Source: Segetibacter sp. 3557_3
Lineage (GTDB): Bacteria; Bacteroidota; Bacteroidia; Chitinophagales; Chitinophagaceae
Direction of reading: 5' to 3'
NCBI RefSeq assembly: GCF_004354985.1
Contig: NZ_SMSK01000003.1
Coordinates: 372,001-436,000, forward strand
DNA length: 64,000 nt
Below, piece by piece: positions 19,747 to 61,460 of this stretch. The position numbers and the translations under genes were made by a program. The notes under the pieces are model-generated. The model did no database searches. It saw only the letters and a program-made list of their open reading frames with translations, and had not been told where the DNA came from. Position 1 is the first letter of the stretch. The number at the start of each line of letters is the position of its first letter.

Positions 19747-19755
19747 ATACCAACT

Positions 19756-20802
19756 ATGTCAAAACCAGTCATTGGAATAACAATGGGCGATCCGGCGTCG
19801 ATTGGCCCCGAAATAGCCATTAAAGCGTTATTACGAAGTGAAATTTATGATAGTTGTCGTCCCCTGTTGGTGGGCGACGCCGGCGTTTTCAGGCATATAA
19901 TCGACCGGTTGCAGTTACAGGCAACCATCAACCCGATTAAAGCAGTCGGGGATGCCGCATTTGAATACGGAATTATAGACGTATTCGATTTGGCTAACGT
20001 GGATCTAGATCAGCTCGTATTTGGAGAAATTTCAGCTATGGCTGGAAATGCCGCGTTTGAAGCGGTGAAGAAAGTTATCGAGTTGGCGCTCGATGGCGAA
20101 CTTGACGCTACAGTAACCGGGCCGATAAACAAAAAGTCGATCAATGAAGCGGGTCACCACTATGCCGGCCACACCGAAATCTATGCGCATTATACCGGAA
20201 CGCGTAAGTATGCCATGTTGCTGGTAGAGGAACACATAAAGGTCATTCATGTTTCTACCCATGTGTCCCTCAGGCAGGCATGCGACCTGGTGAAAAAGGA
20301 TCGCATCCTGGAAGTGGTGCACCTGTTGCGCAACGGGTTGATCCAACTTGGTGAAACGAACCTGAAGATCGGTATTGCCGGGCTCAATCCACACGCGGGT
20401 GACAGCGGGCTGTTTGGTACCGAAGACGATGAAGAAATATTGCCGGCAGTAGAAGAAGCCAGGCGGCGAGGATACGATGTTGAGGGTCCCGTTCCACCAG
20501 ATACCCTTTTTGCAAAAGCTTCTACCGGGGCTTATGGTGGAGTAGTGGCAATGTACCACGACCAGGGACATATACCCTTTAAGCTTTCCGGTTTTAAGTG
20601 GAACGCCGAAAAGCAACAAATGGATAGTGTAAAAGGTGTAAATATTACCATGGGGCTGCCAATCATTCGTACTTCGGTAGACCATGGTACAGCCTTTGAA
20701 ATAGCGGGTAAAGGTGTTGCAAGCCCTGATGCGATGGTGCTCGCCATTGAGTCGGCTGTTCAACTAAGTAAATTTCGAACTAAAACAAAAGCGCCCGCCT
20801 GA
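19756..20802 (+). CDS. pdxA2: PdxA2-like 4-phospho-D-threonate/erythronate dehydrogenase
   Basis: A 348-residue member of the PdxA family. It starts with IGITMGDPASIGPEIAIKAL and has TGPINKKS. Metal-binding histidines are in YAGHTE and VSTHV and in the YHDQGHIPFK motif near the C terminus, followed by GLPIIRTSVDHGTAFEIAGKG. Classical PdxA makes vitamin B6. The PdxA2 branch oxidises and decarboxylates 4-phospho-D-threonate or -erythronate to dihydroxyacetone phosphate and is encoded beside a DUF1537 kinase. Here the kinase gene overlaps its last bases, so PdxA2 is the better call. The symbol rests on that context. Confidence 0.85.
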   Translation: MSKPVIGITMGDPASIGPEIAIKALLRSEIYDSCRPLLVGDAGVFRHIIDRLQLQATINPIKAVGDAAFEYGIIDVFDLANVDLDQLVFGEISAMAGNAAFEAVKKVIELALDGELDATVTGPINKKSINEAGHHYAGHTEIYAHYTGTRKYAMLLVEEHIKVIHVSTHVSLRQACDLVKKDRILEVVHLLRNGLIQLGETNLKIGIAGLNPHAGDSGLFGTEDDEEILPAVEEARRRGYDVEGPVPPDTLFAKASTGAYGGVVAMYHDQGHIPFKLSGFKWNAEKQQMDSVKGVNITMGLPIIRTSVDHGTAFEIAGKGVASPDAMVLAIESAVQLSKFRTKTKAPA

Positions 20803-21965
20803 TGATTGCAGTAATTGCCGATGACTTAACCGGTGCGGCAGAGTTAGCCGGAATAGGCTTGCGTTATGGCTTGAAAGTGGAAATGAGTACATTGATCAAC
20901 CCATCGCCGGAAACGGAACTCTTCGTGGTCAGTACCGACAGCCGGTCAACAGATGAGCAAAGTGCGGTTGAGATCATGCACAACTTAACCCGCCAACTGG
21001 CGGCGCTCAGGCCAACATTTATTTACAAAAAGATCGACTCGGTGTTACGCGGGCACGTGCTTGCAGAACTGGAGGCACAGTTAAATGTATTGGGTCAGGA
21101 GAAGGTAGTTGTAGTTGCCGCAAATCCCCTGTTGGGCCGGACCATAAAAAACGGCGAATACTATTTTCAAAGCCAACCTATTCACCAGAGTAGTTTCGCG
21201 CACGATCCTGAGTTCCCGATCCGGAGCTCGCGGATTACAGATATGCTGCGTGCCGACGATCACCAGGTTTATGTAAAAAGTGTAGCGGAAGATATCCCCG
21301 GCTCCGGGATCATCATTGGCGAGGTGGAAGGGGAGCATGACCTTGCGGGCTGGGCGGAATACGCGGCTGGGATGACCTTCGCTGCAGGCGCGTCCGGTTT
21401 CTTCAATGCGATATTGCATAAACGCCTTCAAACTCCAGCCGCGGTTAAACCAGCGACAGTACGGTTTGCCAATCCGCGGTTGTATGTTTCAGGAACAACA
21501 TTTCAGAAAAGTCGAGATGCTTTACAAGGCTTGCGCAGTAAAGGCAAACCCGTAAGCTATATGCCGGACGACCTGCTGAATAGTACGGATTTCACCCCAG
21601 GCATGGTTGAAAGCTGGGCCAACGACATCCGTTACCTGGTCGAAACGAGTGGCTACGCAATTGTCGCCATTGAATCCTTGCCCGGCGGAATACCCCTCGC
21701 TGCAGCAAACCTCAGAACAAAAAAAGCGCAGGCCATTGCACGCGTGCTAAAACTCGTACGGGTTAAGGAGCTCATTATTGAAGGTGGAGCCACCGCTGCT
21801 GCAATTATCGACGAGATGGGGTATGCCAGCTTTTTCCCGGTTAACGAACTTGCACCCGGGGTGGTACGCATGCGGATTGGTGATACCGACATGCATATGA
21901 CGGTAAAACCCGGAAGCTACCAGTGGCCGGAAGGGGTGTGGGAGATGGAAAAAGAAACGGCGTAA
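20802..21965 (+). CDS. DUF1537 acid-sugar kinase, D-threonate/D-erythronate type
   Basis: The 387-residue kinase opens with VIADDLTGAAELAG, then YKKIDSVLRGHV and the C-terminal nucleotide-domain motifs LYVSGTTF and LIIEGGATAAAIIDEMGY. It is shorter than the kinase encoded at 6699-8048 and belongs to a different DUF1537 branch: ADDLTGA here against GDDFTGSTD there. It overlaps the PdxA2-like gene by one base (TGATG arrangement), implying coupled translation. The expected reaction is ATP-dependent 4-phosphorylation of D-threonate or D-erythronate, supplying the PdxA2 substrate. Confidence 0.86.
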   Translation: MIAVIADDLTGAAELAGIGLRYGLKVEMSTLINPSPETELFVVSTDSRSTDEQSAVEIMHNLTRQLAALRPTFIYKKIDSVLRGHVLAELEAQLNVLGQEKVVVVAANPLLGRTIKNGEYYFQSQPIHQSSFAHDPEFPIRSSRITDMLRADDHQVYVKSVAEDIPGSGIIIGEVEGEHDLAGWAEYAAGMTFAAGASGFFNAILHKRLQTPAAVKPATVRFANPRLYVSGTTFQKSRDALQGLRSKGKPVSYMPDDLLNSTDFTPGMVESWANDIRYLVETSGYAIVAIESLPGGIPLAAANLRTKKAQAIARVLKLVRVKELIIEGGATAAAIIDEMGYASFFPVNELAPGVVRMRIGDTDMHMTVKPGSYQWPEGVWEMEKETA

Positions 21966-47453: not shown

Positions 47454-50400
47454 ATGAAGCATTTGCTACTTGCCATGTGCGCGGGACTCCTTGTGGGTGT
47501 CCCGGCCTATTCCACTCCGCGTTTCATAAAAGAAAAGTCGCCGAAAGTTTATTATCAAAAGCCCGTTAGCGGCAGGGTTACCAACGACAGGGGAGAACCC
47601 CTTGCTGATGTAACGGTACTTGTAACCAATGGCACAGCCTCAACCTTGACCCGGGCAGATGGTACCTTTTCCATTGCCGTTCCGGATAATGCCACCAGCC
47701 TCAGTTTTTCCTACGTCGGCCTCGAAACACAGGAAGTGCCTTTGAACAATCGCACCACCATCAACGTGCAGCTGAAATCACTTGGCAACGCGTTGGATGA
47801 AGTGGTGGTCATCGGTTATGGCACCACACGCAAAATCAACCTCACGGGTTCTGTAGCTTCCGTAAAAGGAGATGTACTTACACAACGCCCCGTTCCGAAT
47901 GTTGCCAATATGCTCGAGGGCAGGGTAGCCGGTCTGCAGGTAACACAACCTTCGGCTGAGCCGGGGCGTGATAATGCCAACTTATTAATCCGGGGACGCG
48001 CTTCGTTTGGTGCCGGTTCAGGTCCACTCGTATTGATCGATGGTGTTACCGGTAACATCAACAACCTTTCACCCGACGACGTTGAAAATATCACCGTCCT
48101 CAAAGACGCTGCTTCGGCTGCCATTTATGGCTCCCGGTCGGCCAATGGTGTAATACTCGTTACAACCAAAAAAGGACGCAGGGGACAAACCACGGTAAGC
48201 TACCGGGTAAATGTTGGCCGGCATACCCCAACAGCGCTTCCAAAGCTAATCACGAATTCCGCAGAATACATGAAAATGTATAATGCCGCAGCAAACAGGC
48301 AAGGTGTTGCATTCAAGTACCCGCAGGCTGATATTGATAAATACGAAAGTGGTTCAGATCCCGCACAGTATCCCAATTTCAACGCAATCGACTACTACTT
48401 TAATCCTGCCACCGTTACCAACCACAACCTCTCCATTTCAGGTGGTACCGAACGGAGCACCTTCAATGTTTCCATGAGTTATTTAAACCAGGATGCTATG
48501 CTGGCGGTGTATAATTTCAAAAGGTATAACGCTTTATTGAATTACACCAACCAGGTAACCAGCGGCATCAATGTGGGTACCACCATAAACATGACCTATA
48601 AGAACCGGCAGGAACCACCTTTCACCAGTGAAAATCTTGCCTTATTGGTATATGCCGCGGGACCACTTTACGGGCCATTTTTACCAGATGGTAGCGGCCG
48701 TATCGTTTCACGCGCTTACGAGCTTGAGGGACGCAACCGTAACGTACAGGAAGCATTTGAAATGGGTTACCAGAACACCAAAGAATACAACCTGAATGCC
48801 CAGGCCTATATCGACATCAAGCTGTTAAAGGGTCTTACCTGGTCGTCGAAAGTTGCCATCAACTATGTAGATGAATATTACAAGATGTACCAGCATCCAT
48901 ATTCTGCCTACTTGCTTCAGGATCGTGGCGCGAATAATGAATACCGGGCGCAATCCTTCGGACCCGACTACCTTGGCGTAACGGATCAATATTCTAAATC
49001 GATCAATCCAACGGTATATTCGGTTTTGAATTATGATACCAAGTTTGGAAACGACCATAACTTTAAAGCACTTGTTGGTTACGAACAACTCTACAACCGC
49101 AACCAGGGACTGCGGGGAAGAAGGTTGAACGGGGTGTCATCAGCAATTACAGAGATTGCCGGTTACAACGCTACGGGTGAGCAGATAAACGCCACTTATC
49201 CCCGTCTTCCAGGATTACCAGGTGTTTCTGAGTGGGCGCTGCAATCGGTGTTTGGCCGGGTAAATTATGATTACAAGGGCAAATACCTGCTTGAAGTAAA
49301 CGCCCGGTACGATGGTACCTCAAGGGTTTCACCTGAATTCCGTTGGGGCTTTTTCCCGTCGGTTTCGGCTGGCTGGCTGGTATCCAATGAAGACTTCTTT
49401 CGCGACAATGTTAGCGCGATCAGCAACCTTAAACTTCGGGCATCCTATGGTACCCTCGGCAACCAGGACATCGGAAACTATTCCTACCAAAACGTGCTCA
49501 CCGTAAGCGGGGGTTATCCTTTCGGAAACGCTGCACCGGTAAGCGCCGCCGTTTTGAATTCGTTTAAGGACCAGAGTTTACAATGGGAGTCCACCCGCAC
49601 GATTGATTATGGAATAGACCTGGACCTGCGTAAAAATGTGTTCGGGTTCACGTTCGACTGGTTCAGGAGAACAACAAGTGATATCCTCGCTGCACAGCCG
49701 GTTCCGGCTAGCCTTGGTCTTACTTCCTCAACTTTCAATAACGGGAGCATGCAGTCCCAGGGAATAGAGCTGGAACTCCGGCACCAGCAAACCATTGGTA
49801 AGGTGCATTATGGTGTTAATGCCCAGGTTTCAACGGCTAAAAACAAGGTGTTGGATATCAAAGTGCCTGGCTTCGGAAGCAGCATTAACCAGGTAGGTTT
49901 GCCTTACGGTTCGCACTACCTGTATATCTGGGATGGTATCATACAGGTCGAAGACACCGTAGCAGGGTCTAAACTGCCCAAGCATTCTTTGAATCCAAAC
50001 CCCAAAGCGGGCGATCTTAAAATGAAGGACGTGAACAGCGATGGTGTAATCGACGCAAACGACCGGGTTGTTGTTGATGGTGCTTACCCCAATTATATGT
50101 ATTCGTTCGGTTTTAATGTTGATTATAAAGGTTTGAGTTTGTCGGCATTTTTCCAGGGTGTTCAGGGTATTAAAAACCGGGTTACCGGTTGGGGGGTAGA
50201 TCCTTTCCACCAGCATTCTGCACCCTCAGAAAAGTGGCGCGATGCATGGACCCCTGCAAATCGCAGTAATACCTTACCGGCTATGTATATCCAGGGTTAT
50301 ACAGGGGTATCAGGTTATGCCGCATCTACTTTTTACCTGATGGATGCATCGTATCTGCGGTTAAAAAATGTGGTACTCTCATATTCACTACCGCGTTCGC

Positions 50401-50570
50401 TTATTGGTCGCATTAAAGCCAAAGAACTTACCGTTTATCTTTCCGGCGATAACCTGTTCACCATTACCAATTACGAAGGCAGCGATCCTGAACGTTCGAG
50501 TACTACAGGCAACTTTGCCCAATATCCACAGGCCCGTGTTTTCAATGCAGGCGTAAACATCAAATTTTAA
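47454..50570 (+). CDS. SusC/RagA family TonB-linked outer membrane transporter (pair 3)
   Basis: A 1038-residue protein with a signal peptide (MKHLLLAMCAGLLVGVPAYS) and a carboxypeptidase-like domain (VSGRVTNDRGEPLADVTVLV). The plug has VVVIGYGTTRKINLTGSVASV, MLEGRVAGLQV, NLLIRGRASF, PLVLIDGVTGNI and ITVLKDAASAAIYGSRSANGVILVTTKKG, and the barrel ends in KF. It has a near-standard SusC length. The SusD gene begins 3 bp after its stop, the tightest of the three pairs. The rhamnosidase, FucP-like permease and lactonase genes downstream suggest a deoxysugar-containing glycan. Confidence 0.95.
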   Translation: MKHLLLAMCAGLLVGVPAYSTPRFIKEKSPKVYYQKPVSGRVTNDRGEPLADVTVLVTNGTASTLTRADGTFSIAVPDNATSLSFSYVGLETQEVPLNNRTTINVQLKSLGNALDEVVVIGYGTTRKINLTGSVASVKGDVLTQRPVPNVANMLEGRVAGLQVTQPSAEPGRDNANLLIRGRASFGAGSGPLVLIDGVTGNINNLSPDDVENITVLKDAASAAIYGSRSANGVILVTTKKGRRGQTTVSYRVNVGRHTPTALPKLITNSAEYMKMYNAAANRQGVAFKYPQADIDKYESGSDPAQYPNFNAIDYYFNPATVTNHNLSISGGTERSTFNVSMSYLNQDAMLAVYNFKRYNALLNYTNQVTSGINVGTTINMTYKNRQEPPFTSENLALLVYAAGPLYGPFLPDGSGRIVSRAYELEGRNRNVQEAFEMGYQNTKEYNLNAQAYIDIKLLKGLTWSSKVAINYVDEYYKMYQHPYSAYLLQDRGANNEYRAQSFGPDYLGVTDQYSKSINPTVYSVLNYDTKFGNDHNFKALVGYEQLYNRNQGLRGRRLNGVSSAITEIAGYNATGEQINATYPRLPGLPGVSEWALQSVFGRVNYDYKGKYLLEVNARYDGTSRVSPEFRWGFFPSVSAGWLVSNEDFFRDNVSAISNLKLRASYGTLGNQDIGNYSYQNVLTVSGGYPFGNAAPVSAAVLNSFKDQSLQWESTRTIDYGIDLDLRKNVFGFTFDWFRRTTSDILAAQPVPASLGLTSSTFNNGSMQSQGIELELRHQQTIGKVHYGVNAQVSTAKNKVLDIKVPGFGSSINQVGLPYGSHYLYIWDGIIQVEDTVAGSKLPKHSLNPNPKAGDLKMKDVNSDGVIDANDRVVVDGAYPNYMYSFGFNVDYKGLSLSAFFQGVQGIKNRVTGWGVDPFHQHSAPSEKWRDAWTPANRSNTLPAMYIQGYTGVSGYAASTFYLMDASYLRLKNVVLSYSLPRSLIGRIKAKELTVYLSGDNLFTITNYEGSDPERSSTTGNFAQYPQARVFNAGVNIKF

Positions 50571-50573
50571 GTC

Positions 50574-52121
50574 ATGACCATCAAGAATAAAATACTCTCA
50601 TTTTTATGTTGCTGTATGCTCGCTCCGGCAGTATCCTGCAACAAAGATTTGCTGGACAGGAACCCGCTTGATAATGTTTCCTCAGAAATCTTCTGGGCTT
50701 CCGAGTCTGATGCCAACAGCGGTTTAGCTGGTGTATACACAAGGCTGCAATCAAATTTTCTTGGCTACGAAAGGGTGTACCTCGACGGTCTTACCGATAA
50801 CGCCTTTTTGTGGGACAATACCAACCAGGGAAGTTTTATGATCATGACCACGGGCAGTCTTTCTGCTACGCTTGGTGGCGCACTTGCGAACATGTATAGT
50901 TCACCATACCGGGCAATCACCTCATGCAACTATTTTCTCGACAACATCGATAAGGCACCGGTAGCTGAGGCAGGCAAGAATATAATGAAAGCCGAGGCTC
51001 GTTTTATTCGTGCACTTTGTTATTTCGACCTCGTGCAAAATTTTGGCGGAGTAATTATCTACCGGAATTTTCCTGCAACGCTTGAGTCAGCGAAGATCGC
51101 CAAAAGCACCAGGGAGGAAGTTTATGCTTTTATCGAAGAAGACCTTGACTTTGCCATTGCAAACCTGCCTGATAACAGGTATAGCGGGCACGCCGTTAAA
51201 GGTAGTGCACAGGGTATGAAAGGCCGGGTGCTGATTACCCAACAAAAATGGGCCGACGCAGTTGCCGTACTCCAACAGGTAACGGGCGGTGGCAAGTTTG
51301 CTTTGGCAAACAATTACGCCGGGTTGTTTAGAACCGCCGGTCAAACCAATGCTGCAGTAAACCAGGAGATCATGTTTTCCACCCAATATCTTGCTACCAC
51401 TAACCCGCAAAGAACAAGTCCGGGTGCAGCAGGTATGGATATAGAGCTGGGCTGGTATTCACTCATGCAACCCTACCAGGACCTGGTGAATGATTACGAG
51501 ATGACCGATGGTAAGCCGATTACCGAATCACCATTATACAACCCGGCTGCCCCGTTCGCAAACCGCGATCCACGGCTTGACCTGTCGGTTAAACTGCCGG
51601 GCGAAACCTGGAGGAATGCCGCCGGCGTAGCATGGACCGGTAGCTACAGTACATTCACAGGTTACCTGGTTGAAAAATATGTGGATCTTTCAAAGGCACC
51701 CTTTACAACCGCATCCGCTACAACAACCGACCAGGACTATATTCACCTTAGGTATGCCGACGTACTCCTGATGTATGCCGAAGCGAAAAATGAGGTTAGC
51801 GGCCCCGACGCTACGGTTTATGCTGCCATAAACCAGGTGCGTGGCAGGGCAGGCATAAACATGCCACCTGTAGATGAAGCAAAATACAATACCAAAGAAA
51901 AGCTAAGGGACTATATCCGCCACGAGCGCAGGGTTGAGTTTGCTTTCGAAGGGCAGCGTTACAACGACTTAAAACGATGGAACATCGCACACATCAAATT
52001 GCCAACGCTAAAAACGCCGTCAGCCGCACCTTTGGTGTTTGGAACGCAGAACTACCTGTTGCCTTTTCAACAATCGGAGTTGGATAATAATCCTGCTCTC
52101 GTACAAAATCCAGGTTACTAA
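50574..52121 (+). CDS. SusD/RagB family nutrient-binding lipoprotein (pair 3)
   Basis: A 515-residue lipoprotein with lipobox cysteine C22 (LAPAVSCNKD). It has the SusD N-terminal region (EIFWASESDANSGLAGVYTRL), FIRALCYFDLVQNFGGVIIY in the TPR-like part and the RagB end (IRHERRVEFAFEGQRYNDLKRWNIAHI, LLPFQQSELDNN, NPGY). It pairs with the preceding SusC at the cell surface. The cytoplasmic module that follows starts 286 bp downstream. Confidence 0.94.
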   Translation: MTIKNKILSFLCCCMLAPAVSCNKDLLDRNPLDNVSSEIFWASESDANSGLAGVYTRLQSNFLGYERVYLDGLTDNAFLWDNTNQGSFMIMTTGSLSATLGGALANMYSSPYRAITSCNYFLDNIDKAPVAEAGKNIMKAEARFIRALCYFDLVQNFGGVIIYRNFPATLESAKIAKSTREEVYAFIEEDLDFAIANLPDNRYSGHAVKGSAQGMKGRVLITQQKWADAVAVLQQVTGGGKFALANNYAGLFRTAGQTNAAVNQEIMFSTQYLATTNPQRTSPGAAGMDIELGWYSLMQPYQDLVNDYEMTDGKPITESPLYNPAAPFANRDPRLDLSVKLPGETWRNAAGVAWTGSYSTFTGYLVEKYVDLSKAPFTTASATTTDQDYIHLRYADVLLMYAEAKNEVSGPDATVYAAINQVRGRAGINMPPVDEAKYNTKEKLRDYIRHERRVEFAFEGQRYNDLKRWNIAHIKLPTLKTPSAAPLVFGTQNYLLPFQQSELDNNPALVQNPGY

Positions 52122-52407: not shown

Positions 52408-53559
52408 ATGTCGAAAATCGTTTTAAAAGGAATAACCTGGGGACACAGCCGCGGTATTACCCCACTGCTGGCGTATTCGCAACGGTTTAGTGAATTAAAC
52501 CCGCAGGTTGAAGTCAGCTGGACCAAACGAACCCTGCAGGAGTTTGCAGATTTTCCGATTGAGAAACTTACCGAAGAATACGACCTGCTCATCATCGATC
52601 ATCCATGGGTTGGTTGTGCCGCTGCTACAGGCTGTGTACTGCCATTGGAAGAATACCTGCCAGCCGAATACCTGGATGATCAACTGGCAAACAGCGTTGG
52701 CTTTTCTCACCAGAGTTATGAATATGGTGGTCACCAGTGGGCGCTTGCAATAGATGCGGCTACACCGGTGGCAAGCTACCGGAAGGATCTGCTGGAACAA
52801 AACGGGGTAGGGGTGCCAAAAACATGGGAGGAGGTCATCAGGCTTGCAGAACAGGGAAGGGTTGCAGTTCCCGCCATTGCCATCGACACGCTGATGAATT
52901 TCTATATGTTTTGTATCGCTCACGGCACAGTACCGTTTGCATCTGAAGAAGAGGTGATTGATGCGGCTACAGGACTTCGTGCCCTCGAAACCATGAGGAG
53001 CTTGTATGTTTTGCTGGACAAAAAGATGTTTGAACGTAATCCTATCGCAGTAGCCGAACTGATGAGTTCCGGTGATCAATTTTGGTACTGCCCATTCGCT
53101 TATGGGTACTCCAACTATTCACGGGTTGGTTATGCTGAAAACTTGTTGCACTATGATGACCTGGTTTCTTTTAATGAGGTAAGATTACGGAGCACAGTTG
53201 GTGGTACCGGACTGGCCGTTTCCGCCACTTCGAACAATGTAGCGCTTGCGGTAAAATATGCCGCGGGTATTGTGTCGCGAAAAATTCAAAGTACCTTTTA
53301 TGTACAGCATGGGGGTCAGCCCGGACATCGGTCGGCATGGCTCAATAAAAATGCAAATCTGCTCTGTAATGAGTATTTTACCCGCGTAATGCCGGCCATG
53401 GAAAATGGGTATATCCGGCCGAGGTATAATGGTTACCTGCACTTCCAGGATCATGCAGGTGACCCTTTACGAAATTTTCTTTTAAACGGTGGTACTGCCA
53501 CGGATGTTTTACAGGAAATAAACGAATTGTACAGGCATAGCTTACAACCAGCTATCTAA
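52408..53559 (+). CDS. Cytoplasmic solute-binding-protein-family homologue
   Basis: A 383-residue protein with the fold signature of family 1 extracellular solute-binding proteins: YDLLIIDHPWVG, LAIDAATPVASYRKDLLEQNGVGVPKTWEEVIRLAEQG and ALAVKYAAGIVSRKIQSTFYVQHGGQPGHRSAW. It begins directly at MSKIVLKGITWGHSRGITPLLAYSQRF, with no signal peptide or lipobox. It should therefore stay in the cytoplasm. No ABC permease or ATPase is nearby; instead two CoA-transferases follow within 10 bp. A role as a ligand-binding, carrier or enzyme subunit of the CoA-transferase module is my inference. The exact function is unknown. Confidence 0.8.
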   Translation: MSKIVLKGITWGHSRGITPLLAYSQRFSELNPQVEVSWTKRTLQEFADFPIEKLTEEYDLLIIDHPWVGCAAATGCVLPLEEYLPAEYLDDQLANSVGFSHQSYEYGGHQWALAIDAATPVASYRKDLLEQNGVGVPKTWEEVIRLAEQGRVAVPAIAIDTLMNFYMFCIAHGTVPFASEEEVIDAATGLRALETMRSLYVLLDKKMFERNPIAVAELMSSGDQFWYCPFAYGYSNYSRVGYAENLLHYDDLVSFNEVRLRSTVGGTGLAVSATSNNVALAVKYAAGIVSRKIQSTFYVQHGGQPGHRSAWLNKNANLLCNEYFTRVMPAMENGYIRPRYNGYLHFQDHAGDPLRNFLLNGGTATDVLQEINELYRHSLQPAI

Positions 53560-53568
53560 TCAAACCGT

Positions 53569-54720
53569 ATGAACAATCTACCGCTGCAGGGCATAACCGT
53601 TTTGGAGTTCAGCCAATACCTCTCAGGGCCATCGGCGGGCTTACGTCTTGCCGATATGGGTGCAAGGGTAATTAAAATTGAACGTCCAAAAGGCGGCGAT
53701 GCCTGCCGTCAGCTATCGATAAAAAACCTCTGGGCAGATGATGGTAGCAGCCTCTTGTTTCACACCATCAATCGCAATAAAGAAAGCTTTGCTGCCGACT
53801 TGAAAAACCCTGCCGACCTTGCAATGATACGCGAGCTCATTAAGGAAGCAGATGTGATCACACACAACTTCCGTCCCGGTGTAATGGATAAGGTCGGCCT
53901 CCACTACCAGGGGGCAAAAGAGATCAATCCAAAGATTATCTATGCCGAGATTACCGGTTATGGAAAAGAGGGGCCCTGGAAAGATCGCCCTGGCCAGGAT
54001 CTCCTGCTGCAATCCATGTCAGGCCTGGTTTATACAAGTGGTAATGAACACGACGACCCTGTGCCCTTTGGGGTTGCCATTGCCGATATCATCTGTGGTG
54101 CACACCTCGTTCAGGGAATACTCGGCGCTTCAATCCGGCGCCACAAAAGGGAAGTTGGTGCCTATATCGAAGTAAGCCTTATGGAGTCTTTGCTCGACTT
54201 CCAGTTTGAATTACTAACCACCTATTACGCAAACCGGCAGGTGCCTAAAAGAAGTTTTATCAGCAATGGTCATCCCTTATTGAGTGCACCTTATGGCTTA
54301 TATGCAACCAGCGATAACTTCATTGCGATCGCAATGGTTAATATTCAAAAGTTGGCTCACGCACTTGAATGTGAGCCCTTAAAAGTTTTTACCCAGGATG
54401 AAGCTTTCAGCCGCCGCGATGAAATCAAAGAGATCCTAACCCAACACCTGGTGACAAAGCCCTCGGATACCTGGCTTGAAAAGCTGGTAGGCTCAGGTAT
54501 ATGGGCAATGGGTGTATTAAACTGGTCGCAAATGATGGAACATCCTGCTTACCAGAGCCTGCAGATGCAGCAGGAAATTATCACCGCTGAGGGCAGGAAA
54601 ATTGTTACCACCCGCTGTCCGATACGCATCAACGGCGAACGGCTTTTTTCAAGCGTACCTGCACCACAGTTGGGTGAACACAACAAAAAAATCAAAGAGG
54701 GCCTACTCCAAAAAGCTTGA
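53569..54720 (+). CDS. CaiB/BaiF (class III) CoA-transferase, first of a pair
   Basis: A 383-residue class III CoA-transferase. It opens with GITVLEFSQYLSGPSAGLRLADMGARVIKIERP, has NRNKESFAADLKNP and ITHNFRPGVMDKVGL, then ITGYGKEGPWKDRPGQDLLLQSMSGL. The expected catalytic aspartate is D173 in VAIADIICGAHLVQGI. Such enzymes move CoA from an acyl-CoA donor to a carboxylic acid in the cytoplasm. The length is short-normal. The next gene starts before this one ends (ATGA overlap), and the two products are similar throughout, pointing to a duplicated, perhaps heteromeric, transferase. Confidence 0.92.
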   Translation: MNNLPLQGITVLEFSQYLSGPSAGLRLADMGARVIKIERPKGGDACRQLSIKNLWADDGSSLLFHTINRNKESFAADLKNPADLAMIRELIKEADVITHNFRPGVMDKVGLHYQGAKEINPKIIYAEITGYGKEGPWKDRPGQDLLLQSMSGLVYTSGNEHDDPVPFGVAIADIICGAHLVQGILGASIRRHKREVGAYIEVSLMESLLDFQFELLTTYYANRQVPKRSFISNGHPLLSAPYGLYATSDNFIAIAMVNIQKLAHALECEPLKVFTQDEAFSRRDEIKEILTQHLVTKPSDTWLEKLVGSGIWAMGVLNWSQMMEHPAYQSLQMQQEIITAEGRKIVTTRCPIRINGERLFSSVPAPQLGEHNKKIKEGLLQKA

Positions 54721-55868
54721 ACATGAACTTACTCGAAGATATTGTTGTCGTTGATTTCAGCCAATTCCTGTCAGGACCATCAGCCGCACTCCGGCTGGCG
54801 GATATGGGTGCACAGGTCATCAAAATTGAGAAGCCGGGTACCGGGGATATCTGCCGTGAACTTTACGTTTCCGACGTAATGGTCGAAGGGGAGTCGACTA
54901 TTTTCCATGCCATCAACCGCAACAAGCAGAGCTATGCTGCCGACCTGAAAAACAGCGACGATGTTGCTAGAGTAAAGCAACTGATCTCTAAAGCAGATGT
55001 GGTGATACACAATTTCCGCCCGGGTGTAATGAAACGCCTTGGCCTTGACTACGAAACATTAAAACCGGGGAATCCTTCGCTTGTGTACGCCGAAGTGAGT
55101 GGTTACGGCAATGAGGGCCCATGGAAAGATCTACCCGGACAGGACCTCTTGTTGCAGTCTGCATCAGGCCTGTCGTGGCTGAGCAATAACGACAGCGATA
55201 CGCCAACACCAATGGGTGTTGCAGTGGTTGACATTCTTGCCGGCGCGCATGTGGCACAGGGTATACTTGCATCGTTGTATAAACGCGCTGTTACCGGGGA
55301 GGGAGCCTTGGTGCAGGTGAGTATGTTTGAAAGTATCATTGACTTCCAGTTTGAATTACTGACCTGTTTTTTCAACGATGGTAACGAGTTACCTGTGCGC
55401 AGTTCGGTAAACAACGGTCACGCCTATATCCCCGCTCCATATGGTATTTACAAAACCGGGGATGGCTACCTTGCTCTTGCCATGGGTAATATAGTTACCC
55501 TTGCAAACCTGATAAGCTGTGATGCACTAAGCGGGTATACGGATAGCTTTGGCTGGTTTGATAAACGTGATGAAATTAAAACCAAGCTGGCGGAACACCT
55601 GGCTACAGCAACAACCGCTCACTGGCTCTCCATTCTTGAGCCGGCTGATATCTGGTGTGCGGCTGTCATGGATTATGATCACCTAACAGCTCATGAGGGC
55701 TATAAGGTGCTGAATATGGAACTGGAGGTACAAACGACTAATGGTTTAACAGTCACTACTACCCGGTGCCCGATCCGGGTGGATGGCGCCTTGTTGACCT
55801 CACCGGTGGGTGCGCCGTCGCTTGGTGAACACAATGGGCCGATTGAAAAACAGTTCTCTATTAACTAG
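54717..55868 (+). CDS. CaiB/BaiF (class III) CoA-transferase, second of a pair
   Basis: Also 383 residues and collinear with its neighbour: DIVVVDFSQFLSGPSAALRLADMGAQVIKIEKP, INRNKQSYAADLKNS, HNFRPGVMKRLGL, GYGNEGPWKDLPGQDLLLQSASGL and catalytic D172 in VAVVDILAGAHVAQGI. It overlaps the preceding gene by 4 bp. Both copies keep the aspartate, so both may be active. Typical substrates for the family are carnitine, oxalate, dicarboxylates and hydroxy acids. A sugar-derived hydroxy acid is the guess suggested by the neighbouring lactonase and dehydrogenase genes. Confidence 0.92.
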   Translation: MNMNLLEDIVVVDFSQFLSGPSAALRLADMGAQVIKIEKPGTGDICRELYVSDVMVEGESTIFHAINRNKQSYAADLKNSDDVARVKQLISKADVVIHNFRPGVMKRLGLDYETLKPGNPSLVYAEVSGYGNEGPWKDLPGQDLLLQSASGLSWLSNNDSDTPTPMGVAVVDILAGAHVAQGILASLYKRAVTGEGALVQVSMFESIIDFQFELLTCFFNDGNELPVRSSVNNGHAYIPAPYGIYKTGDGYLALAMGNIVTLANLISCDALSGYTDSFGWFDKRDEIKTKLAEHLATATTAHWLSILEPADIWCAAVMDYDHLTAHEGYKVLNMELEVQTTNGLTVTTTRCPIRVDGALLTSPVGAPSLGEHNGPIEKQFSIN

Positions 55869-55956
55869 CTATATGCATCTGCCCTGCCAGGTAAGATGAA
55901 ACTTTTTTGCGTTTGCAGGAAAGGAGTTTTATTTGCCTTGTTTAAATAACGATTGC

Positions 55957-56826
55957 ATGCCGGAACGACTCGTCGACACACATCTTCATGTTTGGAATTT
56001 CAAGCGGGCGGAATATTCATGGCTAAGGAACGATATTTCGATCTTAGGCAGGAGTTATCACATTGAAGAGATCGAGCAGGAACGAAAAGCTGCGCGTGTT
56101 AGTGAAGGTGTGTTGGTGCAGGCCGCAAACAACATGGAAGAGACTGAATGGATGCTGGAGGTTGCTGCACATACCCCATGGATCAACGGGGTTGTGGGTT
56201 GGGTACCCCTCACCGATCCCGAAGCAACTGAAGAAGCTTTAAACAATGAATACCTGGACAATCCTTATTTTAAAAGTGTGCGCCATCTTATTCACGACGA
56301 AGCCGACCCTGAGTGGTTGCTCCAGCCCACGGTTTTAGAGAGCCTGCAATTGCTTGCAGATCATAACCTGCCTTTCGATTTTGTTGGGGTGCTCACAAGT
56401 CATATCAGAACGGCCCTGGTTGTTGCTGAAAAAGTGCCCGAACTTAAAATGGTGTTCAATCACCTGAATCAACCACCCATTGCAACAGGTGAACGGTTTG
56501 GCGAATGGGGCGAACTCATGCAGGAAGCGGCTAAACACCCGCAGTTCTATGGAAAAATATCGGGGCATGGAAATACGGCAAAGAACCCGTATTGGTCAAC
56601 CTCGGTTATTGAACCTTATATCGCCTTTGCTTTAGAACACTTTGGTGAGAACCGGTTGTTTTGCGGTAGCAACTGGCCGGTAAGTCTACTGGCCGGAGAT
56701 TATGTTCGCACCTGGGATCACTACAAAAGTGTAATCAATTCCTTGTGTGATGGTGAGCAACGGCAAAAGATTTATTACAACAATGCAGCTGCTTTCTACC
56801 AGTTAGACTCCAGGCCTGCTTTGTGA
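55957..56826 (+). CDS. Amidohydrolase family 2 protein, probable sugar lactonase (COG3618 type)
   Basis: About 289 residues from the ATG at 55957. The frame is open to a TTG at 55933, but LVDTHLHVW normally lies close to the N terminus. Metal-site landmarks are HLH in DTHLHVW, H near VRHLIHDE, FNHLNQPP and FCGSNWPVSLL, which corresponds to the FGSDWPV end motif with N in place of D. Characterised relatives hydrolyse L-fucono- or L-rhamnono-lactone and similar lactones. In this cluster it would open a lactone produced by the Gfo/Idh/MocA dehydrogenase. It is the last + gene before the convergent regulator. Confidence 0.85.
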   Translation: MPERLVDTHLHVWNFKRAEYSWLRNDISILGRSYHIEEIEQERKAARVSEGVLVQAANNMEETEWMLEVAAHTPWINGVVGWVPLTDPEATEEALNNEYLDNPYFKSVRHLIHDEADPEWLLQPTVLESLQLLADHNLPFDFVGVLTSHIRTALVVAEKVPELKMVFNHLNQPPIATGERFGEWGELMQEAAKHPQFYGKISGHGNTAKNPYWSTSVIEPYIAFALEHFGENRLFCGSNWPVSLLAGDYVRTWDHYKSVINSLCDGEQRQKIYYNNAAAFYQLDSRPAL

Positions 56827-56837
56827 TATAGGAAGTA

Positions 56838-56861
56838 CAAAGTTGCTACGGTAGCACTTTA
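56838..56861. terminator. Hairpin between convergent genes, probable bidirectional terminator
   Basis: AAAGT-T-GCTAC and GTAGC-ACTTT form a 10-bp stem with one bulge, in the 66-bp gap between the convergent lactonase and AraC genes. The stem foot is A:T-rich on both sides (AAAG/CTTT), as expected for a terminator used from either strand, although the T tracts are short. Confidence 0.5.
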
Positions 56862-56892
56862 ATAACGAAAGTCTTGATATTGTTTGCCTGGG

Positions 56893-57801
56893 TTAATCTT
56901 TGTTAATGGAGCGGTATTTTTTTGGCGACATACCAATGATCTTACTAAAACGCCTGGAAAAATAATAAGGATCATCAAAACCAAAGGTCAGCGCAATATC
57001 CTTGATTGAACGATCGGTAAAATCAAGTAGCTGGGTTGCCTTTTGCATCTTCATCTGTATAAAATAGTCAATCGGAGCATAGCCGGTCTTTTGTTTAAAA
57101 AGGCTTGAAAAACGCGAAGCGGAATAGTTATAGTGTGAGCAGAGCTCGTTTAGCGTAAGGTTCTGGTGAATGTTATCCTGCATATAAAGGATCGCGCTAT
57201 CGATACAGTGAATTTTGTCTGCAGGGTTTGTTTTATAATGTTTTGCGTTGAAGATGAAAAGCGTAAGAAAATAGGTCAGGCACATGTTTGCAAACAACAG
57301 GTTGTCGATACTGTAGCCAAGTTCAAGGGTGCGATAGATCTTTGAGAATTGCGATACTATTTCGTCGGAGCTCCGGATGTGAAAAGGCTTGTAGTGTGTT
57401 TGCACCGCTTTCGACTGGTTAAAGTAGGGCAGTAGTTCACCGCCAAAATGGATCCAGTAGATCGACCATGGATTGTTCTCATCGCTGCCATAAGCATGTT
57501 CGATATTCTGCGGAAGGATAAAAAATTCATTGGGATTAACGGTGTACTTGTTTTCACCTATTTTATACCATCCCTGGCCATCAACACAGTAAAACAGGAA
57601 GTTTTCGGGCAAGCCTTTTTTACGATAAGTAAAATGATCTTTAGCCTGCGGGTAATAACCAAGGCTGCAAATATAAAACTGGCTCAACAGGCGTTTATTG
57701 TACACGCTTGACTTCAGTACGGACTTCGGGATCTCGATCCGCTGGCGGCCAAGGCCATGCCAAATGTTTTTATAGGAGCCTTCTTTTATAGTTTGTTGCA
57801 T
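56893..57801 (-). CDS. AraC family transcriptional regulator
   Basis: A 302-residue protein with an N-terminal cupin-type sensor domain (about 60-150; FLFYCVDGQGWYKIGENKYTVNPNEFFILPQNIEHAYGSDENNPWSIYWIHFGG) and a C-terminal double helix-turn-helix (about 200-300; LTLNELCSHYNYSASRFSSLFKQKTGYAPIDYFIQMKMQKATQLLDFTDRSIKDIALTFGFDDPYYFSRRFSKIIGMSPKKYR). It is the only minus-strand gene I support and the only specific regulator in the window. It is convergent with the CoA/lactonase genes and divergent from the dehydrogenase/MaoC genes. It probably senses the sugar or an early metabolite and activates both sides. Confidence 0.93.
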   Translation of the reverse strand: MQQTIKEGSYKNIWHGLGRQRIEIPKSVLKSSVYNKRLLSQFYICSLGYYPQAKDHFTYRKKGLPENFLFYCVDGQGWYKIGENKYTVNPNEFFILPQNIEHAYGSDENNPWSIYWIHFGGELLPYFNQSKAVQTHYKPFHIRSSDEIVSQFSKIYRTLELGYSIDNLLFANMCLTYFLTLFIFNAKHYKTNPADKIHCIDSAILYMQDNIHQNLTLNELCSHYNYSASRFSSLFKQKTGYAPIDYFIQMKMQKATQLLDFTDRSIKDIALTFGFDDPYYFSRRFSKIIGMSPKKYRSINKD

Positions 57802-58131
57802 ATGGTAAACAGTTCTTGCAATACGTATTTACTGCTTAAAACGATATGTTGAATGTATCTATTCTAAAGCATGTAGCGGGCGCTGTTGTCGATAAAGTTT
57901 GTTAATAAAGCAGGCGGCACGGTTGCAAATATCCGGTGCCGAAGAATACCATTCTTAAAAACTGGTTTTTACCAGGGGAATACAGGATTACAACAGGTGA
58001 CAGTTTAGATAAAGTGTGCTTTTCAGAGGCAACTTTTCAGGCGAATGTGCTGCAACCATCAGTTCACTTTTACCAGCTCCTGTTTAGGTAAGGAATTTGG
58101 AGCAGCGATAAACAAGGTTAGCGATAACAAT
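57802..58131. promoter_or_regulatory. Divergent intergenic region between AraC gene and dehydrogenase
   Basis: This 330-bp gap must hold promoters for both directions. It contains AAACTGGTTTTTACCAG (about 57958-57974), a small inverted repeat that could be an operator. I see no clear TAnnTTTG on either strand. The + frame of the dehydrogenase is open back to an ATG at 58045, but the residues it would add look noncoding. Confidence 0.45.
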
Positions 58132-59184
58132 ATGGAAATACCCTACAAACCAATCTTACCTGACACCCGGATGCCCATTGTGATCATTGGTGCTGGCGGC
58201 ATCGTTCGCGATGCACACCTTCCTGCTTACCGCAAAGCGGGATTCGAGGTAAGCGGAATTACCAATCGCACAAGAGCAAGGGCAGTAAAGGTGGCGGAAG
58301 AATTTGGTATACCTAATGTATACGATAGTGTTGCGGAAGCGGTTGCCAGTTCACAACCGAACACGGTATACGACCTTACCATAATGCCGGAACAGTTTGT
58401 TGAAACCCTGCGCTTACTGCCCGATGGCAGTGCCGTACTTATACAAAAACCGATGGGTGATTACTTCTGGCAAACCCGGGAAATACTGGAGGTATGCAGG
58501 GAGAAAAAGCTTGTCGCAGCAATCAACTGCCAGCTTAGGTTTGCCCCCTATGTATCCGCTGCGCGTTATCTTGTAAGCCAGGGATTAATCGGCGACTTGT
58601 ACGATATGGAAGTGCGGGTTACCATCAATACACCCTGGGAAATCTTCCCGCATGTAATCATTCATCCGCGACTTGAAATTCAATACCACAGTATCCATTA
58701 TATCGACCTCGTGCGTTCATTCCTGGGTGAACCCGCCAGTGTTATGGCAAAAACCCTTCGCCATCCTGCAAAAGAACTTTCCTCTTCCCGCTCGACCATT
58801 CTGTTTGATTATGGCAACACGATGCATGCGGTTATTAACACCAATCACGATCATGACTTTGGTGCTAAAAACCAGGAAAGCTATATCAAGTGGGAGGGTA
58901 CCAGGGGTGCGATTAAGGCGAAGATGGGATTGCTGATGGACTATCCGCATGGGGTTCCGGATCATTTCGAATATTGCCTTTTGGAAGAGGGTCGCGAATG
59001 GAAGACGATGGAACTTGAGGGATCATGGTTTCCCGATGCGTTTATTGGTACCATGTCGAGCCTGATGCGATTTAAAGAAGGCTCTTCCGACGTACTGCCT
59101 ACGAGCGTGGAAGACGTGGTGAAAACAATGGCTGTTGTGGAAGCAGCATACAAATCGAGCGACATCGGGGGTGTAAAAATGTAA
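58132..59184 (+). CDS. Gfo/Idh/MocA family oxidoreductase
   Basis: About 350 residues from the ATG at 58132 (MEIPYKPILPDTRMPIVIIGAGGIVRDAHLPAYRKAG). The 58045 ATG would add 29 residues lacking family similarity. The Rossmann loop is IGAGGIVRDAHLP, the catalytic-lysine segment is VLIQKPMGDYF, and HYIDLVRSFLGEP is the substrate-domain motif. It is cytoplasmic. Its expected role is NAD(P)-linked oxidation of a free sugar to a lactone, which would feed the COG3618-type lactonase on the other side of the regulator. The C-terminal GGVKM and stop are built from AAAATGTAAAATG repeat DNA. Confidence 0.87.
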   Translation: MEIPYKPILPDTRMPIVIIGAGGIVRDAHLPAYRKAGFEVSGITNRTRARAVKVAEEFGIPNVYDSVAEAVASSQPNTVYDLTIMPEQFVETLRLLPDGSAVLIQKPMGDYFWQTREILEVCREKKLVAAINCQLRFAPYVSAARYLVSQGLIGDLYDMEVRVTINTPWEIFPHVIIHPRLEIQYHSIHYIDLVRSFLGEPASVMAKTLRHPAKELSSSRSTILFDYGNTMHAVINTNHDHDFGAKNQESYIKWEGTRGAIKAKMGLLMDYPHGVPDHFEYCLLEEGREWKTMELEGSWFPDAFIGTMSSLMRFKEGSSDVLPTSVEDVVKTMAVVEAAYKSSDIGGVKM

Positions 59185-59301
59185 AATGAAAAATGTAAAA
59201 TTAAAAAGCTGCACTGTTGAACACGCAGTTCATATAGTTTACCTCTTTCGCTTCATACAACATTCAACATAATTCATCATTCATAGTTCAGCGTTACAAA
59301 A

Positions 59302-59775
59302 ATGTATTTCAAGTCAATTTTCTTCGAGGACTATATTGCGGAAAGTAAGCGGGTTACGCTCGGGCGTACAATCACTGAAACTGATTTTGTTGTTCATGCC
59401 GGCCACACCGGCGACTTCTTTCCGCATCATATGGATGCAGAGTGGTGCAAAACCCAGCCCTTCAAACAGCGAATCGCTCACGGAACCATGATATTCAGCA
59501 TCGGTATCGGGCTTACTGCATCAGAAATAAATCCTGAAGCATTCTCTAAAGGTTACGATCGCCTGCGCTTTGTAAAGCCGGTATTTATCGGGGATACCAT
59601 ACATGCTGTTGTAACCATAGCTGAAAAAACAGACTCAAAGAAGCCGGAATACGGAACCGTTATCGAGCACGTCGACATCATTAATCAACATGGTGAGGTG
59701 GTATTGGTATGTGACCACATCTTGCTCGCCAAACGAAAGCCGGAGAGTAATTCAAACGGAGACAGTCCTAAGTAG
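59302..59775 (+). CDS. MaoC-like (R)-hydratase/dehydratase
   Basis: The 157-residue single hot-dog domain matches MaoC dehydratases. [39 protein letters not shown] contains the catalytic aspartate/histidine region, and [22 protein letters not shown] is the second-half motif. These enzymes add or remove water on 2-enoyl or hydroxyacyl-CoA thioesters. A CoA-ester hydratase near two CoA-transferases, a lactonase and a sugar dehydrogenase suggests dehydration of a sugar-acid CoA ester. The gap before it (59185-59301) holds the repeated AAAATG and TTCAACAT motifs. Confidence 0.88.
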
Positions 59776-60137: not shown

Positions 60138-61460
60138 ATGGCCCAACTTCCCATTGAATCTGTAGCCCAGCCAACCAATTTCAACAACGCTGCGGGCTCA
60201 CAAAAACGTTTTCTTGTTCCCTTTATCCTCGTTACAAGCCTCTTTTTTCTTTGGGGAATGGCACACAACTTCGACTCTATATTAATTCCACATCTCAAGA
60301 AAGCATGTGAGCTCAATAACCGGCAGTCTACATTGGTAGACACCTCCGTTTTCTTTGCCTATTTCATTATGGCTATTCCTGCCGGCATGTACCTTAAACG
60401 ATGGGGATACAAAAGCGGCATCATTACCGGCCTGCTGGTATTTGCTGTTGGTGCCTTCCTTTTTGTACCAGCTGCAAACAACCGCAGCTACGAGTTGTTT
60501 CTGGTTGCACTTTTTGTAATTGGCTGCGGGCTTGCTATGCTCGAAACAGCTGCTAACCCCTATGCAGCTATCCTGGGTTCTCCCGAAGGTGCAAGCACCC
60601 GGCTTAACCTTGCAGCTTCCTTTAACGGACTGGCTGCTTTTATCGCTCCCGTAATCGGAACAGCGTTTATCCTTTCAGGGGTTGAGCATACGACGGCCGA
60701 ACTTGCGGCTATGCCAACAACTGAACGCATTGCTTACCTACAAACCGAAGCATCAGCAGTAAAGTTGCCATATATTATACTTGGGGCGGTTCTGTTGTTG
60801 GTTGCGGTAATGTTCTACTTTTTCCGCTTCCCCGAAGTCAGGGACGATACCAAAGTGGCTCGCCCTGCTGAGTTTCTACGGGCATTTCGCCACCGGCACC
60901 TCACATGGGCCGTTATCGCCCAATTTGCCTATGTTGGTGCGCAGGTATGTGTAACCAGTTTTTTTATCCGCATGGCAAAGCAGGGTGGGGGCATCGATGA
61001 AAAAACCGCCGGCTATTACCTCGGGGTATACGGCTTACTGTTTATGGTTGGTCGTTTCATTGGAACATTTTTTCTCAAGTATGTCTCTTCACAACGGTTG
61101 CTTACCATATACGCGGTAATAGCAACCCTACTTTGCCTGTTGGCGATTTTAGGTAAAGGAGATTATGTCATCTATTCACTTGGTGGACTTGGATTTTTTA
61201 TGTCGATCATGTTCCCAACCATCTTCTCACTGGGGATCGAAGAGTTGGGTGCCGACACCAAGATCGGGTCGTCACTGCTCGTAATGTCGATTGTTGGTGG
61301 TGCGATATTCCCCTACATCATGGGCACTATTATCGACATGAACGGCGACAAGATCCAGGTGGGCTATATTGTTCCCCTCGTTTGTTTTTTGGTGATTATC
61401 TATTTTGGTTTGAGCGGCTACAAGGTTCGTGAACACGAAAAACAACTGGAACTGCAATAG
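60138..61460 (+). CDS. FucP-like MFS sugar:proton symporter
   Basis: A 440-residue, 12-helix MFS protein of the L-fucose:H+ symporter group: FILVTSLFFLWGMAHNFDSILIPHLKKACELNNRQSTLVDTSVFFAYFIMAIPAG, GLAMLETAANPYAAILGSPEGASTRLNLAASFNGLA and IMFPTIFSLGIEELGADTKIGSSLLVMSIVGGAIFP are typical. The acidic residues D46 (in NFDSILIP) and E135 (in MLETAANPY) match the transport residues of this group. It should import a deoxysugar such as L-fucose or L-rhamnose, or another hexose, freed by the exported enzymes. The GH106 gene follows 85 bp downstream. Confidence 0.93.
   Translation: MAQLPIESVAQPTNFNNAAGSQKRFLVPFILVTSLFFLWGMAHNFDSILIPHLKKACELNNRQSTLVDTSVFFAYFIMAIPAGMYLKRWGYKSGIITGLLVFAVGAFLFVPAANNRSYELFLVALFVIGCGLAMLETAANPYAAILGSPEGASTRLNLAASFNGLAAFIAPVIGTAFILSGVEHTTAELAAMPTTERIAYLQTEASAVKLPYIILGAVLLLVAVMFYFFRFPEVRDDTKVARPAEFLRAFRHRHLTWAVIAQFAYVGAQVCVTSFFIRMAKQGGGIDEKTAGYYLGVYGLLFMVGRFIGTFFLKYVSSQRLLTIYAVIATLLCLLAILGKGDYVIYSLGGLGFFMSIMFPTIFSLGIEELGADTKIGSSLLVMSIVGGAIFPYIMGTIIDMNGDKIQVGYIVPLVCFLVIIYFGLSGYKVREHEKQLELQ

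Follow-up and report, generated by a model that had tools for sequence, protein, structure and literature searches.

The locus described here comes from Segetibacter sp. 3557_3 (contig NZ_SMSK01000003.1 of assembly GCF_004354985.1, positions 372,001-436,000), and all coordinates refer to this 64,000-nt stretch, hereafter the window. Between 52408 and 59775, the window encodes a solute-binding-protein homologue (SBPA), two class III CoA-transferases (CaiB1 and CaiB2), a lactonase homologue, an AraC-family regulator, a Gfo/Idh dehydrogenase and a MaoC hydratase, followed by a FucP-type symporter (Table 1). A preliminary description of this DNA had placed a signal-less solute-binding-protein homologue 9 bp upstream of two overlapping CoA-transferases, and the reading frames and the 9-bp gap between SBPA and CaiB1 are as it reported. 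The 4-bp overlap between CaiB1 and CaiB2 hinges on a TTG start and would be abolished by an ATG two codons further on.

Table 1. Features of the locus, in window coordinates
Feature	Position	Strand	Basis and remarks
SusC/SusD pair	47454..52121	+	Domain profiles; close homologues adjoin the module in some relatives
SBPA, homologue of solute-binding proteins; no signal peptide, predicted to be cytosolic	52408..53559	+	ORF, PF01547, AlphaFold, Foldseek
CaiB1, class III CoA-transferase, Asp173 retained	53569..54720	+	PF02515, alignment
CaiB2, class III CoA-transferase, Asp172 retained	54717..55868	+	PF02515, alignment; TTG start, alternative ATG 6 bases later
Amidohydrolase, L-fuconolactonase homologue, Asn at 176 and 247	55933..56826	+	PF04909, NF052480, alignment
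AraC-family regulator; carries the AraC-type cupin domain for ligand binding	56893..57801	-	Domain profiles
Gfo/Idh/MocA dehydrogenase	58045..59184	+	Domain profile, conserved residues
MaoC hydratase	59302..59775	+	Domain profile, conserved residues
FucP-type sugar:proton symporter	60138..61460	+	TIGR00885

The symporter scores 384 bits against TIGR00885 (cut-off 280) and falls below the NF007524 cut-off of 427, whereas many relatives of the module carry a RhaT gene instead. SusC/SusD homologues stand beside the module in L097 (71/80%), L081 (62/71%) and L069 (62/69%). Polysaccharide genes found near the module are of a generic type. A search for operator repeats or shared promoter motifs around the AraC gene gave nothing convincing, and membership of this regulator in the conserved module was rejected since an AraC match occurs in only 4/76 loci, counting the 61 contig loci together with the 15 from the phylum sample.

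Conserved residues and predicted cellular location of the gene products

SBPA belongs to PF01547 (2.1e-11), and its AlphaFold model (mean pLDDT 93.5) has the ordinary fold of sugar-binding proteins (Foldseek TM 0.85). Neither a signal peptide nor a lipobox was detected in SBPA, and an N-terminal extension is impossible because an in-frame TAG immediately precedes the ATG; in its relatives the chosen start lies 5-11 aa ahead of the motif in 91/91 cases. The protein would thus be a solute-binding protein minus its export signal and, from its sequence, should stay inside the cell. Five residues (H13, R15, D64, D116 and R337) are identical in 93/93 aligned rows, and D64 and R337 align with positions of the trehalose/maltose protein 1eu8 that we take to be ligand-binding. 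All SBPA proteins form a single clade on a long branch; a second, apparently signal-less clade (SBPB) also adjoins CaiB2, and several alphaproteobacterial clusters contain in addition a true solute-binding protein with a signal. Using a query that was positive in 2/3 control records, a MalG-type (CUT1) permease was found at E 1e-10 in 0/16 SBPA-bearing genomes vs. 107/280 others from a sample of 296 Bacteroidota genomes, and the genome of Segetibacter sp. 3557_3 itself gave no match at E 0.001. The SBPA clade is therefore very likely not a transporter component, and an automatic label such as “extracellular solute-binding protein” would misstate both its place and its role.

Both transferases match PF02515 (4e-96 for CaiB1, 8e-94 for CaiB2), and the Asp at the catalytic position, located by alignment to solved transferases, is invariant (D173 in 68/68 rows of CaiB1, D172 in 70/70 rows of CaiB2), as the preliminary description had proposed. 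The MaoC protein retains D38 and H43 in 76/76 rows; the motif of hydratase 2/MaoC proteins is GDxNPxH, and its Asn is absent here, where the sequence reads TGDFFPHH. Judged by PF02515 with its Asp and by the Asp/His pair of MaoC, the transferases and the hydratase carry these sequence traits of their classes. In the Gfo/Idh dehydrogenase, K135, H215, H218 and D221 are kept in 72/72 rows.

The lactonase homologue is less canonical. It scores only 140 bits against the L-fuconolactonase model NF052480 (cut-off 400), and its two Asn residues stand where Asp occurs in 66/69 aligned rows, position 247 being presumably the catalytic one; it thus lacks the conserved Asp of an oxidative L-fucose lactonase. 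Neither two enolase-superfamily dehydratase queries nor one UxuA-like query matched in the window at E 1e-3, and the whole genome gave no match to an enolase-type fuconate dehydratase at E 1e-40, only distant homologues. The same genome encodes elsewhere a separate L-fucose dehydrogenase/lactonase/hydrolase cluster and a UxaA-type protein, so the module may serve a sugar other than L-fucose. The earlier suggestion of a COG3618-type lactonase, a Gfo/Idh dehydrogenase and a MaoC hydratase grouped around an AraC gene holds for the genes. No enolase-type dehydratase was indeed found in the window, but a self-contained lactone route dispensing with such an enzyme is not supported, given the lost Asp, the separate L-fucose cluster and the annotated L-fuconate dehydratase of four plasmid loci described below.

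Distribution of the module and its partner genes

Relatives of the SBPA module occur in Alpha- and Betaproteobacteria, which bears out the mention in the preliminary description of signal-less binding proteins beside CaiB genes in Proteobacteria, as well as in Chloroflexia and Phycisphaerae MAGs; no SBPA DNA match was found in E. coli genomes. Altogether 92 loci were fetched (61 contig loci, 15 loci from the phylum sample and 16 plasmid loci). A CaiB gene lies within 300 bp of SBPA on the same strand in 45/61, 14/15 and 15/16 of them, respectively, and a MaoC or crotonase (ECH) hydratase is present in 76/82 CaiB-bearing loci (crotonase without MaoC in L110, L111, L090 and L095), counts that are inflated because many loci are close kin. 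The idea of a conserved module was thus borne out across phyla by the linkage of SBPA, CaiB and hydratase in most loci. Within the phylum sample, two PF02515 genes (E 1e-20) are found in 16/16 SBPA genomes vs. 5/280 others, with a single gene in 45/280 others, and at E 0.001 the 6.75-Mb genome of Segetibacter sp. 3557_3 matches PF02515 only twice, each time at this locus. This genome-wide count and the phylum profile rule out chance neighbours.

The linkage has exceptions. Ten of the 92 fetched stretches contain no CaiB gene (8/61 contig loci: L021, L022, L027, L028, L036, L048, L060 and L077; 1/15 sample loci: L104; 1/16 plasmid loci: L091), some of them ending at contig ends. In the genome of L104 (G286) the CaiB pair lies ~60 kb from SBPA, and in L057 ~8 kb away. 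Five of the ten CaiB-less loci (L021, L022, L027, L036 and L091) have UxuA-like genes near SBPA, which argues against SBPA being strictly a subunit of the transferase.

The neighbouring genes point to deoxysugars. A fucose/rhamnose-type FAH hydrolase (E 1e-60) is found in 13/16 SBPA genomes vs. 39/280 others, alpha-L-fucosidase or its homologues lie near L085, L104 and L107, and alphaproteobacterial clusters contain, in differing subsets, a rhamnose mutarotase, an FAH hydrolase and an annotated L-fuconate dehydratase, the latter in 4/16 plasmid loci, all four alphaproteobacterial. The possibility that the module stands in for a missing L-fuconate dehydratase was not favored by the profiles, which are neutral: at E 1e-40, 2/13 FAH-positive genomes with SBPA encode an enolase-type fuconate dehydratase vs. 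10/39 of those lacking SBPA, and among FAH-positive sample genomes the presence of the module does not track the lack of the usual dehydratase.

A possible CoA-dependent route and its alternatives

We tentatively read the locus, with a confidence a little short of even, as a cytosolic CoA-dependent branch of the catabolism of 6-deoxyhexose (L-fucose-type) acids with SBPA as acid-binding partner. FucP or RhaT would import the sugar, the Gfo/Idh dehydrogenase would oxidize it and the lactone would be opened by a lactonase encoded here or elsewhere in the genome. The aldonate would then be bound by SBPA, a former solute-binding protein turned cytosolic partner that may present the acid to the CaiB1/CaiB2 transferase, which would shift CoA onto it, the donor being probably the CoA ester of the dehydrated product, by analogy with carnitine CaiB/CaiD. 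MaoC, or crotonase in other lineages, would take water across C2-C3 of the thioester, leaving a 2-keto-3-deoxy product for cleavage by a separate dehydrogenase and hydrolase. We infer the substrate, the order of the reactions, the CoA cycle and the acid-presenting part of SBPA; the hydratase of most CaiB-bearing loci is consistent with CoA loading and thioester dehydration, and to that extent the scheme first put forward in the preliminary description stands as an interpretation. It is possible, if somewhat doubtful, that a solute-binding protein was recruited to the cytosol on what appear to be two occasions (the SBPA and SBPB clades) for the CoA-thioester dehydration of sugar acids, with SBPA presenting the acid or catalyzing a step. 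The parts of the open-access literature consulted, including PMC8857213, PMC11378808 and PMC9007349, contain no description of the module and no report of CoA-thioester dehydration of aldonates.

Known sugar-acid dehydratases include metal-dependent enolase-type enzymes and others, beside which the CoA route, if true, would be a further chemistry. Moreover, a few proteins would then suffice to test what becomes of fucose-like sugars in soil Bacteroidota and rhizobia.

SBPA could itself be an enzyme, a binding fold turned catalyst that epimerizes or dehydrates the sugar acid or performs a thioester step on it, with CaiB and UxuA pairs as alternative partners. MqnA chorismate dehydratase is a precedent for such a conversion; the dehydratase partners of SBPA are unrelated (CaiB with MaoC, CaiB with ECH, or UxuA-like), so its task may exceed CoA transfer, and its five invariant residues and single long branch would also fit. 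However, the model shows an ordinary sugar-binding fold, SBPA matches no catalytic motif so far recognized and binding alone may account for the conservation, as the alignment of D64 and R337 with presumed ligand sites of 1eu8 illustrates, which leaves catalysis by SBPA unlikely. We consider it similarly improbable that the substrates of the module are modified 6-deoxysugars such as the O-methyl forms of fucose or rhamnose, or else L-galactose, with the CoA step enabling MaoC to eliminate a group that is beyond the reach of a metal-dependent dehydratase. Plain L-fucose seems already covered, given the four alphaproteobacterial loci with both an annotated L-fuconate dehydratase and CoA genes and the separate L-fucose cluster of Segetibacter sp. 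3557_3, and the UxuA-type locus L022 has two PhyH dioxygenases; yet none of the genes is proof of a methylated substrate, and the polysaccharide genes nearby are generic.

A purely regulatory part for SBPA, as a cytosolic ligand sensor or buffer acting on the operon or its enzymes, would suit the conserved cleft residues and the distance from CaiB in L057 and G286, but it is quite unlikely considering that the clusters have their own AraC, IclR or LacI regulators and that the close pairing of SBPA and CaiB genes in most loci suggests a shared function. As for an ABC-transporter component using an unusual export route, membership of PF01547 and the sugar-binding fold would allow it, but the missing signal peptide, the lack of a MalG-type permease in 16/16 SBPA genomes of the sample and the true binding proteins already owned by several alphaproteobacterial clusters make it hardly credible.

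Comparison with known systems

SBPA shares its fold (TM 0.85) and PF01547 membership with MalE/TMBP/SmoF-like sugar-binding proteins, and differs from them by the absence of a signal peptide, by its linkage to CoA-transferases and by the lack of a MalG-type permease in all 16 sampled SBPA genomes. Among heteromeric class III transferases, benzylsuccinate CoA-transferase (9fn0) is made up of two subunits and, as here, two CaiB-family proteins are encoded together; unlike in that enzyme, CaiB1 and CaiB2, which may form one enzyme, both retain the Asp. The non-phosphorylating oxidative pathway of L-fucose/L-rhamnose has in common with the module a sugar dehydrogenase, a lactonase homologue and FucP/RhaT uptake, together with FAH and SDR genes near the module in several relatives, whereas the window replaces the conserved lactonase Asp and contains CoA-transferases and a hydratase with no enolase-type dehydratase. 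Finally, in the carnitine CaiB/CaiD system a class III CoA-transferase and an acyl-CoA hydratase dehydrate a hydroxy acid as its thioester. The module shows the same linkage of transferase and hydratase (76/82 CaiB-bearing loci), although it uses MaoC rather than crotonase in most loci and combines two CaiB-type proteins with a solute-binding protein in a sugar-acid context.

The binding protein and its relatives

A candidate CoA-dependent sugar-acid module had been proposed here from seven genes, whose coordinates and family assignments were borne out by open reading frames and profile matches. The module lies downstream of a SusC/SusD pair and extends into a symporter gene that also scores 354 bits with model NF007524, below its cut-off of 427.

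Coordinates of the genes and clusters discussed
Feature	Location	Positions	Remarks
SBPA, solute-binding-protein homologue	window	52408-53559 (+)	
CaiB1, class III CoA-transferase	window	53569-54720	PF02515
CaiB2, class III CoA-transferase	window	54717-55868	PF02515
Lactonase homologue	window	55933-56826	
AraC regulator	window	56893-57801 (-)	
Gfo/Idh dehydrogenase	window	58045-59184	
MaoC hydratase	window	59302-59775	
FucP-type symporter	window	60138-61460	module continues into it; TIGR00885 384 bits, cut-off 280
SBPB	locus L081	15667-16794	beside CaiB2; separate clade
SBPB	locus L085	15436-16668	beside CaiB2; separate clade
Crotonase, aldehyde dehydrogenase	locus L110	12658-14925	
Crotonase, aldehyde dehydrogenase	locus L111	7007-9240	
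UxuA-like cluster	locus L022	8797-19804	
Fucose cluster	own genome, L124 (G000:C22)	7449-11931	
RuBisCO-like row	window	859-8864	
PdxA2-like row	window	17476-21965	

Relatives of SBPA were collected from genome contigs (63 loci, 61 with a full gene), from 15 Bacteroidota genomes besides our own in a phylum sample of 296 (16 SBPA genomes and 280 others) and from 16 loci hand-chosen among 145 matching plasmid records. The resulting alignment has 93 rows including the window, with numerous close kin and three plasmid loci from Sinorhizobium meliloti; genome G074 was kept out of the SBPA group for its weak match (31% identity over 96 residues, E 1.9e-4).

The preliminary description of SBPA as lacking a signal peptide was confirmed by an in-frame stop immediately 5′ of its ATG and by short N-termini in its relatives. 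With starts chosen by script (the closest ATG within 20 codons, otherwise the closest start), the motif G[IML]TWxHxRG or a near form was found in 91 of 92 locus rows, 5-11 residues after the start in all 91; the exception is L077, with the possible N-terminus MKKIRGITWDHARG. No alternative in-frame start occurs in the 60 upstream codons of 74/91 rows, and upstream starts would add 1-3 residues in 6 and 12-54 in 11, so that a few rows may have longer forms. True binding proteins of the same alphaproteobacterial clusters carry signal sequences evident by eye. SBPA is a conserved family with an expected cytosolic location.

An AlphaFold model built with 29 sequences (mean pLDDT 93.5) has the complete sugar-binding-protein fold, with a TM score of 0.85 to MalE3 and a trehalose/maltose protein. 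As 30 residues, including T10, W11, H13, R15, W38, D59, D64, D116, R125, Y234, Y237, Q294, Q304, W311 and R337, are identical in 93/93 rows, the cleft is probably retained for a ligand.

SBPA is without a MalG-type transporter to serve. Neither the own genome nor an SBPA-carrying Persicobacter plasmid was matched by a MalG-type permease query taken from an alphaproteobacterial cluster, which gave 11 and 12 matches in the two control plasmids from Alphaproteobacteria. At E 1e-10 the query matched 107/296 genomes of the phylum sample and 0/16 SBPA genomes, an absence due in part to kinship, Bacteroidota classes differing in such transporters.

Association with CoA-transferases and hydratases

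SBPA is associated with CoA-transferases. The two PF02515 genes of the 6.75-Mb own genome both lie in the SBPA operon, and exactly two were counted at E 1e-20 in 16/16 SBPA genomes, as against two in 5 and one in 45 of the 280 others, first-look candidates having been scored only in part in some genomes. The pair adjoins SBPA in 15 of the 16; in G286, some 60 kb of the same contig separate it from SBPA. The neighbourhood survey suggested earlier likewise revealed co-occurrence of SBPA, CaiB and a hydratase: CaiB is present in 53/61 contig, 14/15 phylum and 15/16 plasmid loci (same strand and within 300 bp in 45, 14 and 15), and CaiB-bearing loci include a MaoC or crotonase gene in 50/53, 14/14 and 12/15 cases, the exceptions being L052, L057, L068 and three Sinorhizobium loci. 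No CaiB was found in the fetched stretches of L028, L048, L060, L077 and L104 (G286), nor in those of L021, L022, L027, L036 and the Microvirga locus L091, where SBPA lies near UxuA-like genes. The L022 cluster (SBPA, two UxuA-like genes, RraA, two PhyH dioxygenases, an SSF symporter and an SDR) is a different sugar-acid cluster that shares SBPA.

Catalytic positions are retained: the CaiB Asp in 68/68 CaiB1 rows, 70/70 CaiB2 rows and 15/15 other CaiB rows, these last from plasmid loci, Asp38 and His43 of MaoC in 76/76, and Lys135, His215, His218 and Asp221 of Gfo in 72/72. The window MaoC shares 68% identity with its Roseibium counterpart and is closest among solved structures to 4ffu (1e-63), which we take to be from Sinorhizobium meliloti. 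The window lactonase homologue, with Asn at positions 176 and 247, may be inactive or altered; Asp stands there in 66/69 aligned rows and Asn in three at each position (at 247, the window, L019 and L074).

Many Chitinophagaceae share the order MaoC-SBPA-CaiB1-CaiB2-lactonase-RhaT-Gfo, from which the FucP-bearing window type differs; other loci have SBPA-CaiB1-CaiB2-SBPB-Gfo-MaoC-FucP. SBPB, a second binding protein, appears by eye to be signal-less. In a 49-row tree (midpoint-rooted, some branches long), SBPA (100/100) and SBPB (99/98) are separate clades, SBPB being closer to true fucose-cluster binding proteins. In L110 and L111, crotonase and aldehyde dehydrogenase take the positions of MaoC and Gfo beside SBPA and the CaiB pair, and neither MaoC nor Gfo was matched in the fetched stretches. 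A CaiB-SBP-crotonase trio also occurs amid other sugar genes in Variovorax and Sinorhizobium sp. K101.

Candidate substrates

Neighbours in different locus subsets are indicative of L-fucose or a closely related sugar as the substrate: FucP, RhaT, rhamnose mutarotase, an annotated L-fuconate dehydratase, FAH hydrolase and alpha-L-fucosidase. The substrate may also be a modified sugar. Fucose/rhamnose-type hydrolases occur in 13/16 SBPA genomes versus 39/280 others. Replacement of L-fuconate dehydratase by the module is not indicated, since the enolase-type enzyme is about equally rare in hydrolase-bearing genomes with (2/13) and without (10/39) SBPA, and the own genome has a separate fucose cluster with L-fucose dehydrogenase (above cut-off), SDR, KduI and two members that score under their cut-offs, a lactonase homologue (294 bits against 400) and FAH hydrolase (343 bits against 500).

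Two further rows of consecutive genes lie in the window. One combines ribose-type ABC genes and a sugar-kinase-like gene, both assigned from sequence alone, with a RuBisCO-like protein, a DUF1537-type kinase and an Asp/Glu racemase-family protein, and resembles a rare, apionate-like acid-sugar route. The other holds genes resembling iron alcohol dehydrogenase, DapA, PdxA2 and DUF1537, named by eye, and is perhaps a second acid-sugar cluster.

Proposed mechanism and comparison with known systems

Most likely, SBPA acts as an acid holder for the transferase/hydratase system. CaiB is retained where a crotonase takes the place of MaoC, in support of thioester dehydration or hydration as the common step. 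Since SBPA also occurs next to UxuA-like dehydratases, its task may be broader and may include catalysis. The components are known families, but to judge from the literature searched, they have not been described together with a binding protein inside the cell: searches of open-access papers found neither a description of the module nor any of six aldonyl-CoA names, which falls short of proof of novelty. The best parallel, likewise a transferase with a hydratase, is the carnitine CaiB/CaiD system, in which the transferase loads the acid from the product CoA ester and the hydratase then takes water off the activated acid. By analogy, SBPA would hold the acid, the CaiB-type transferase would transfer CoA onto it from the CoA ester of the product, and the hydratase would remove water from the activated acid.
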